Source: Exiguobacterium sp. s124
GTDB lineage: Bacteria; Bacillota; Bacilli; Exiguobacteriales; Exiguobacteriaceae
Length of the DNA: 43,851 nucleotides
Reading direction: 5' to 3'
NCBI RefSeq assembly: GCF_018617485.1
Contig: NZ_JACSKH010000006.1
Span: forward strand, 1 to 43,851
This document shows positions 36,548 through 36,877 of the stretch, piece by piece. The position numbers and the translations under genes are program-made. The notes under the pieces were generated by a model, which worked only from the letters and a program-made list of their open reading frames with translations, had not been told where the DNA came from and ran no database searches. How positions within the stretch are numbered: position 1 is the first letter of the stretch; every line of letters starts with the position of its first letter.

Positions 36548-36564
36548 GATTTATTCTCCATCCT

Positions 36565-36603
36565 TTCGACATATGCAATTCTCATTATACACGGTTCGAC
36601 AAA
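36565..36603 (-). promoter_or_regulatory. Spo0A-box-like sites in the metG promoter and leader
   Basis: On the minus strand TTTGTCGAA (36595-36603) fits the Spo0A-box consensus and lies in the spacer just upstream of the metG -10. A second TGTCGAA core (36565-36571) lies in the leader, next to the ribosome-binding site. Binding there would be expected to block metG transcription. No experimental support is known to me; this is read from the motif. Confidence 0.5.
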
Positions 36604-36614
36604 AGAATTTCCAA
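36584..36614 (-). promoter_or_regulatory. metG promoter
   Basis: The minus strand has a perfect TATAAT (36584-36589). The -35 is uncertain: TTGGAA (36609-36614) at 19 bp, or TGGAAA at 18 bp. It is part of an inverted repeat. No S-box or T-box structure is seen in the short leader of about 30 bases. Confidence 0.65.
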
Positions 36615-36637
36615 AACTAATTGTTTGGAATTTTTTT
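36609..36637 (+). terminator. plus-strand terminator-like inverted repeat at the metG -35
   Basis: TTCCAAA (36609-36615) pairs with TTTGGAA (36624-36630) and is followed on the plus strand by seven T (36631-36637). There is no plus-strand gene upstream. It might stop antisense transcription out of metG before it reaches abrB, or act as an operator for metG. It is AT-rich and weak. Confidence 0.4.
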
Positions 36638-36687
36638 GCGTTTTATACGTCATAAATGTTCCAAAAATACCCTTTCTTTGTTTCAAG

Positions 36688-36717
36688 TTCAAACTATCGG
36701 GGAAATTTAGGTATATA
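36688..36717 (+). promoter_or_regulatory. possible upstream abrB promoter (P1)
   Basis: TTCAAA (36688-36693), 18 bp, TATATA (36712-36717) is a modest plus-strand match. The paired Spo0A-box-like sites at 36728-36745 would lie just downstream of its start, the same layout as at the stronger promoter at 36770-36798. The call depends on that symmetry. Confidence 0.35.
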
Positions 36718-36727
36718 TCGCTCTTGA

Positions 36728-36745
36728 TTCGACAAATTTCGAAAA
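36728..36745 (-). promoter_or_regulatory. upstream tandem Spo0A-box-like pair
   Basis: The complement of TTCGACAAA (36728-36736) is the exact box TTTGTCGAA. Ten bases further, TTCGAAAA (36738-36745) is a weaker copy in the same orientation. Ten-base spacing places both on one face of the DNA. Confidence 0.5.
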
Positions 36746-36769
36746 ATTGCTTTTCCAGATAGTAAGCAG

Positions 36770-36798
36770 TTGACTGCAATTGGAAAGTTTAGTATGCT
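36770..36798 (+). promoter_or_regulatory. abrB promoter
   Basis: TTGACT (36770-36775), 17 bp, TATGCT (36793-36798). Transcription should begin near 36805, giving a leader of about 73 bases that contains the tandem Spo0A-box-like pair. Confidence 0.75.
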
Positions 36799-36814
36799 TT
36801 TTGCTGTAGTCACA

Positions 36815-36832
36815 TTGTCGAATTTTGACGAT
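36815..36832 (+). promoter_or_regulatory. tandem Spo0A-box-like pair downstream of the abrB promoter
   Basis: TTGTCGAA (36815-36822) and TTGACGAT (36825-36832) stand ten bases apart in direct orientation, about +11 to +28. As I recall it, B. subtilis abrB has the same arrangement (TGTCGAA followed by TGACGAA) in its transcribed leader, where phosphorylated Spo0A represses. Another TGTCGAA core lies on the minus strand at 36850-36856. Confidence 0.65.
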
Positions 36833-36877
36833 TCATGTCACCATGAGATTTCGACACCATTGGAGGAGGAAACACAA

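Follow-up and report, generated by a model that had tools for sequence, protein, structure and literature searches.

Why does a bacterium that forms no spores keep, in front of abrB, a dense group of sequences resembling the binding sites of the master regulator of sporulation? The question is raised by the 330-bp gap between the divergent metG and abrB genes in the window, a stretch of 43,851 nucleotides that is contig C11 of a 2.82-Mb Exiguobacterium genome in 15 contigs. The AbrB encoded there shares 100% identity with the protein of Exiguobacterium sp. s146, 98% with that of E. aurantiacum and 88% with that of E. indicum. Unlike B. subtilis, Exiguobacterium is a non-sporulating genus (PMC3533761, PMC8706201). 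Conserved Spo0A-like sites, at abrB and in a polysaccharide cluster, make the persistence of a sporulation master regulator in non-sporulating lineages directly testable, and a transformation protocol has been reported for Exiguobacterium (PMC8706201).

Table 1. Features of the metG–abrB region (window coordinates) and the related tandem in the polysaccharide cluster
Feature	Position	Strand	Basis or conservation
metG (methionyl-tRNA synthetase), divergent neighbour	34589..36547	-	Pfam tRNA-synt_1g, tRNA_bind
0A box TGTCGAA just past the inferred metG start point	36565..36571	-	exact; 19/20 clade loci
metG promoter-like TGGAAA-18-TATAAT	36613-36584	-	promoter-like sequence
0A box TGTCGAA in the metG promoter -35/-10 spacer	36595..36601	-	exact; 19/20 clade loci
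Palindrome TTCCAAA-N8-TTTGGAA over the metG -35 region	36609..36630	.	20/22 columns invariant, 19 clade loci
Upstream 0A pair TTTCGAAATTTGTCGAA	36728..36744	-	exact box in 6/20 clade loci
TGTCGAA of the upstream pair	36728..36734	-	exact
abrB promoter TTGACT-17-TATGCT	36770..36798	+	consensus scan 9/12
Proximal tandem, putative Spo0A operator TGTCGAATTTTGACGAT, ~+12 to +28 of abrB	36816..36832	+	conservation
TGTCGAA of the proximal tandem	36816..36822	+	exact
0A box TGTCGAA between operator and abrB ribosome-binding site	36850..36856	-	exact; 20/20 clade loci
abrB	36878..37171	+	Pfam AbrB_C, MazE_antitoxin
Capsule/exopolysaccharide-cluster tandem	L249:10000-10016 (= L131:1501-1517)		homologous sites L248, L239, L240

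The initial annotation had placed five exact TGTCGAA heptamers in the gap, counting both strands, with weaker copies beside two of them. All five lie where it had put them (Table 1), and the weaker copies are TTTCGAA at 36738-36744 (-) and TGACGAT at 36826-36832 (+). Its estimate that chance would give well under one is borne out by 5000 dinucleotide shuffles of the gap, which average 0.10 copies and reach 4 at most. The density between other genes is far lower. We sampled 400 kb, about 14% of this genome, as 20 stretches of 20 kb taken from contig C1 alone, and called genes by a rough ORF rule. Intergenic DNA there contains 5 copies in 33.3 kb, or 0.15 per kb; the non-intergenic remainder contains 114, or 0.31 per kb. 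Among 195 intergenic runs of at least 60 bp in this sample, 189 have no copy, 6 have one and none has more, and a Poisson estimate for at least five copies in 330 bp is 2.4e-9. The window as a whole is mildly enriched, with 22 copies versus 13.5 expected, a count reached by 1 of 100 shuffles. Since the heptamer itself is common genome-wide (755 copies versus 335 of a reversed control) and mostly found in ORFs (114 of the 119 in the sample), the signal lies in the clustering, spacing and position of the copies.

The pair at 36815-36832 had been described as lying just downstream of the abrB promoter, and a promoter-like sequence is indeed found a short distance upstream. Both of its hexamers and 16 of its 17 spacer positions are invariant in 19 clade loci, and abrB transcription would start near 36805. 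The 16-mer TGTCGAATTTTGACGA is identical in all 22 Exiguobacterium loci, which represent 18 distinct upstream sequences (L028 and L029 are probably repeats). The second box of the tandem, TGACGAT at 36826, keeps the ten-base spacing and departs from TGTCGAA at bases 3 and 7; the A at base 3 is the rule elsewhere, occurring in 90% of 72 other loci. The exact pattern TGTCGAANNNTGNCGA is found once in the genome of the window. In 18 of 19 genus genomes there is one copy at abrB and 0-2 others, with 0-2 for the reversed control. No abrB was found in the remaining genome, G011; metG was not found there either, with weaker synthetase relatives only, so the missing abrB is likely an assembly gap. The genome searched beside it, G012, gave metG at 98%. 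Outside the genus, we compared 76 loci, the best 76 of at least 581 AbrB relatives and by name all Bacillales. Within 160 bp of abrB, the 17-mer TGTCGAANNNTGNCGAA is exact in 54 of these, has one mismatch in 9, two in 11 and three in 2, and therefore 63 of the 76 match with at most one mismatch.

These features, namely ten-base tandem 0A boxes, a position after the promoter and a spo0A gene with a conserved DNA-binding domain, identify the tandem at 36816-36832, at the level of sequence, as the classical Spo0A operator of abrB. The arrangement resembles the B. subtilis Spo0A~P-abrB system, in which tandem 0A boxes ten bases apart also lie just downstream of the abrB promoter, abrB is likewise divergent from metS/metG, and the genome likewise contains spo0A, together with a Spo0B-type gene that in Exiguobacterium is a candidate. 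At the B. subtilis abrB promoter, deletion of the Spo0A box relieves repression (PMC9160880), and boxes lying past the promoter are described as forming a roadblock (PMC12090719). For C. difficile Spo0A, binding is about tenfold lower when TGTCGAA at PabrB is mutated (PMC3485338).

The proposed binding protein is encoded in the genome. spo0A, for which a search had been suggested, is present in the genome of the window and in 19 of 19 genus genomes. The genome of the window has one copy, with receiver and Spo0A_C domains, and the protein aligns to solved Spo0A chains, 1lq1 and 1fc3 among them. Within the aligned regions, the stretches LLLDIIMPHLDG and SRVERAMRHAIKTAW, which we take to be the phosphoacceptor stretch and the recognition helix of Spo0A, are invariant in 19 of 19 genomes. 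The median pN/pS of spo0A in the genus is 0.09 (171 pairs), a rough ratio because synonymous sites are near saturation at a pS of 0.69; the gene is under purifying selection. All 18 genomes chosen to test for site loss upon spo0A loss carry spo0A. As for the phosphorelay, a 146-aa SPOB_a protein is encoded after rpmA (32.8 bits, cut-off 28.1). This family is not specific to Spo0B: it also matches 5 of 14 control genomes, including E. coli, and genomes that lack Spo0B are among them, so the case for Spo0B rests partly on the rpmA neighbourhood, which is presumably as in B. subtilis. Spo0A, kinA, kinB, spo0B and a Spo0F-like gene have been reported for E. sibiricum, without spoIIA or spoIIG, in the account given in PMC2615787. 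A regulator other than Spo0A could be imagined to recognise TGTCGAA in the gap, given that such a common word is not diagnostic alone. We regard this as highly improbable, since the copies agree with the abrB operator of the 63 loci counted above in their spacing, order and position, all 18 genomes chosen for the test carry spo0A, and the recognition-helix stretch is kept.

The sites were expected to be conserved in related strains, and this is correct for all except the box at 36728, which is exact in 6 of 20 clade loci only; equality of the five boxes is thus rejected. In the pair at 36728..36744, 3/7 and 2/7 columns are invariant, and the box at 36728 is, on this distribution, recent and belongs to a subclade. 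In the other four boxes (36565, 36595, 36816 and 36850), all 28 of 28 columns are invariant in 19 clade loci, a set that leaves out L021 and two E. indicum-type loci. For comparison, the invariant columns amount to 220/330 over the whole gap, 7/27 in 36632-36658 and 3/7 in box 36728. Box 36850, present throughout the clade, is absent from the two E. indicum-type loci. This extra conserved box and the boxes on the metG promoter are a difference from B. subtilis.

The genes around spo0A and the sporulation genes show what has been lost. The recN stop codon abuts the spo0A start codon with zero gap (L001:1080-1090). With spo0A directly after recN and the 1,086 bp before it in the fetched locus free of exact 0A boxes, autoregulation has probably been lost, which differs from B. 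subtilis, in which spo0A autoregulation has been described (PMC12090719). The sporulation gene SpoIVA (SpoIVA_ATPase) is absent from the genome of the window, with a positive B. subtilis control. In B. subtilis, we take spoIVB to lie between recN and spo0A; here it is missing from that place. The latter is in line with Table 5 of PMC3533761, which also gives two Exiguobacterium without sigE/F/G/K, spoIIE and spoIIGA. The same paper includes two Exiguobacterium in its list of Spo0A-positive non-spore-formers, and the genus resembles others named there, Macrococcus and B. selenitireducens, in that spo0A is kept while sporulation genes are missing. Beyond these gene lists, the putative operator sites are conserved in Exiguobacterium as well. 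The initial annotation had further stated that the segment lacks the sporulation genes expected there. In a comparison of 16 of the window's ORFs with Pfam, SpoVG was matched and no other sporulation-named family. At 14670-17300 of the window, an 876-aa ABC-2 type transporter protein is encoded between an S1-domain gene and a tRNA-Met/tRNA-Glu pair, surroundings that we take to be close to the spoIIE position in B. subtilis.

With the sporulation genes missing and no exact 0A box in front of spo0A, the boxes might be relicts of a sporulating ancestor that no longer respond to Spo0A. This we consider very improbable: the four conserved boxes are fully invariant in a gap that otherwise varies, box 36850 is kept in 20 of 20 clade loci and spo0A is under purifying selection. 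The suggestion that the Spo0A-AbrB switch serves a purpose other than spores is supported. None of the three outcomes that the initial annotation had named as refuting it was observed, with density compared in the 400-kb sample, and it fits the absence of SpoIVA, the published lists of missing sporulation genes and the selection on spo0A. The switch itself is known, and its maintenance here without sporulation is, judging from these sequences, a well supported new instance. A role of the Exiguobacterium sporulation genes in its thick envelope and in tolerance to drying has been raised as a possibility in PMC8706201.

From what was observed, namely the boxes and how well they are conserved, promoter-like sequences, spo0A and a candidate Spo0B-type gene, we arrive at a proposal that we hold with considerable confidence, in which the cluster would be the region through which Spo0A controls abrB in Exiguobacterium. 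Phosphorylated Spo0A would bind the tandem box, about 12-28 bases past the point where abrB transcription starts, and block this transcription, which would lower the amount of the AbrB repressor and release transition-state genes. Box 36850 and the metG-end pair would strengthen this repression by cooperative or looped binding. The gap being short, Spo0A bound to the metG-end pair would at the same time lie over the metG promoter. The steps of the proposal that we infer are the phosphorylation of Spo0A, its binding, the repression, the looping and the effect on metG.

The metG end of the gap allows a second reading, in which the proximal pair, perhaps with box 36850, acts alone on abrB, and the boxes at 36565 and 36595 form a separate Spo0A operator that represses metG and slows methionyl-tRNA charging on entering stationary phase. 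We give this reading appreciable weight and still consider it the less probable one. In its favour is the position of the two boxes, in the promoter spacer and just past the inferred metG start in 19 of 20 clade loci. In the 20th locus, that of G018, the gap is divided between two contigs, of which the one with metG retains both boxes and the one with abrB retains its own. The two E. indicum-type loci are without the 36565/36595 pair and have two other boxes near metG, one of them on the -35 hexamer of a promoter-like TCGACA-17-TATAAT, which also agrees with a metG operator. The points against it come from other Bacillales, in which a distal box tracks the abrB operator and not metG, as described below.

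The same end of the gap contains a palindrome over the metG -35 region (Table 1). Its exact arms with a gap of 5-10 bases are found at a single place in the genome of the window. TGGAA/TTCCA words, the palindrome included, number five in the gap versus a shuffle mean of 1.25 (P 0.007). With TGGNA as an AbrB motif, the palindrome is possibly an operator of AbrB or of another regulator, and abrB autorepression is a lead only. In G018, the whole palindrome is present at both contig ends (L156:2000-2082 and L157:1-180) beside different hairpin-rich sequence, and the split is perhaps due to insertion of a mobile element.

Among the 76 loci of other Bacillales, the DNA that was fetched includes a divergent metG in 69. 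The gaps of 56 of these 69 contain one or more additional exact boxes, versus 3.1 expected from shuffles. A box lies 150-280 bp upstream of the tandem operator in 55 gaps, and 14 have none at this distance; B. inaquosorum (L032), a relative of B. subtilis 168, has a distal box about 200 bp upstream of its operator; among all 99 extra boxes, 87 fall in this interval versus 26.9 under an even spread. The distance of the distal box has a standard deviation of 24 bp relative to the abrB operator (a figure bounded by the search at 150-260 bp from the operator) versus 172 bp relative to the metG start (n=52). Gaps of at least 600 bp are long enough to separate the two anchors, and in 16 of 16 there is a box 150-260 bp away from the abrB operator and 308-819 bp away from metG; four of these also have a farther box (326-738 bp), three within 165 bp of metG. 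In the ten gaps of 380 bp or less, six have a distal box, 73-100 bp from metG, and four have none. The distance to the operator is thus kept and that to metG is not, which ties the distal box to abrB, and we read it as a second Spo0A site serving abrB in Bacillales. By this comparison of sequences, the metG-end boxes of Exiguobacterium would also be linked to abrB.

Two other origins of the distal box were considered and rejected. A known RNA element was sought with Rfam at 20 loci, which gave a single match lying off the distal box, and none in the window's own gap. This match, in the Bacillus infantis metG-abrB gap (L079:1045-1111), is the Bacillaceae-1 RNA, and the distal box there is near 1228. 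A promoter at a fixed distance from the box was sought at 52 loci; the mean z was 0.06 towards abrB and 0.65 towards metG, with no sharp position.

The surroundings of the distal box show a helical tendency. Neighbouring boxes that have no more than one mismatch tend to stand at multiples of roughly 10.5 bases (R 0.73 over 62 neighbours), a value reached in 0 of 20000 random draws, although related species are not independent of one another. Between distal box and operator, the distance ranges from about 150 to 260 bp and is only weakly phased with the helix (R 0.31); a strict loop geometry is therefore not maintained. Modelling from 2025 suggests that tetramers of Spo0A~P may join separate boxes at the spo0A promoter through a DNA loop (PMC12090719), and this loop model offers a possible mechanism for the distal site. 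The titles and abstract beginnings that were listed contain no report of a distal Spo0A site of abrB; subscription papers could contain one. If the site is real, one of the most thoroughly studied switches in bacteria would gain a component.

The Exiguobacterium gap is about 330 bp long, and its metG-end boxes lie 221 and 251 bp from the operator. Owing to this short gap, boxes at the distal distance fall on the metG promoter. They stand on the opposite strand to most distal boxes of other Bacillales, so common descent with these does not follow, and they could be metG operators of separate origin. What would go beyond the known switch is the distal Bacillales site, the way it falls on the metG promoter in Exiguobacterium and a site in a polysaccharide cluster. 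A more ambitious reading would combine them in a two-part Spo0A operator, in which the abrB tandem of Bacillales pairs, perhaps by looping, with a distal array that follows the helix some 200 bp upstream. Exiguobacterium would have reused this operator to bring AbrB, metG and polysaccharide under one Spo0A~P signal. We put it forward tentatively, as less likely than not.

The polysaccharide site emerged from a tandem scan of the genome of the window, which gave a site after a CpsB/CapC-type gene; L197 of a second genome is in the same place. In 20 stretches fetched by predicted or known position, the CpsB/CapC-type gene was found in 6 of 11 genomes. TGTCGA-N4-TGTCGA lies 28-56 bp after it in G000, G002, G004 and G006, in which the genes are 67-100% identical. 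In G016 and G012, in which the gene is 60% identical, there is no tandem, and the stretches of the other five genomes contain no such gene. Since G000 and G002 served as pointers, the independent cases are G004 and G006. The tandem hexamers are identical across the four genomes with poorly alignable flanks, and each tandem has one full TGTCGAA and another box that departs at the seventh base. In the 800 kb examined, half of which was fetched because of these tandem matches, the pattern is found at these four places only, and each of the 15 other spacings of 0-15 bases between these hexamers occurs 0-2 times. The G000 cluster contains the families Wzz, ParA-type, CpsB_CapC, Polysacc_synt_2, Bac_transf, Glycos_transf_1, UDPG_MGDP_dh and Polysacc_synt. 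Next to the tandem comes a conserved leader in which a terminator-like hairpin can be made out by eye, and the gene after this leader is galU-like (by eye) or Polysacc_synt_2.

On the evidence of this conserved tandem, a surface polysaccharide may be a direct target of Spo0A in Exiguobacterium, and the tandem also fits a non-spore role of the Spo0A-AbrB switch. A Spo0A-type site linked to polysaccharide genes resembles biofilm-matrix control in B. subtilis. There, the route from Spo0A to the matrix runs mainly via SinI/SinR and AbrB, whereas the Spo0A-like tandem of Exiguobacterium lies inside the polysaccharide cluster itself. No report of Spo0A control of an Exiguobacterium polysaccharide was found among the titles and abstract beginnings listed, and subscription papers could contain one. 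Under the tentative two-part reading, the Spo0A circuit of Exiguobacterium would have been rebuilt for envelope or survival, spores aside.

Finally, the tandem scan of the genome of the window, with one mismatch allowed, gave 38 places versus 11 for the reversed control, two of them in the metG-abrB gap. Of the 38, 30 were examined as loci, and the 29 of these that lie outside the gap comprise 25 in ORFs and 4 between ORFs, by a rough rule that puts even the abrB site inside an ORF. One near-perfect tandem 0A-like site is common to two genomes (L127:1501-1516 and L203:1501-1516). It lies between aldo/keto-reductase-like and lipoprotein-like genes, named by eye, and in L127 it is within a doubtful 52-aa ORF.
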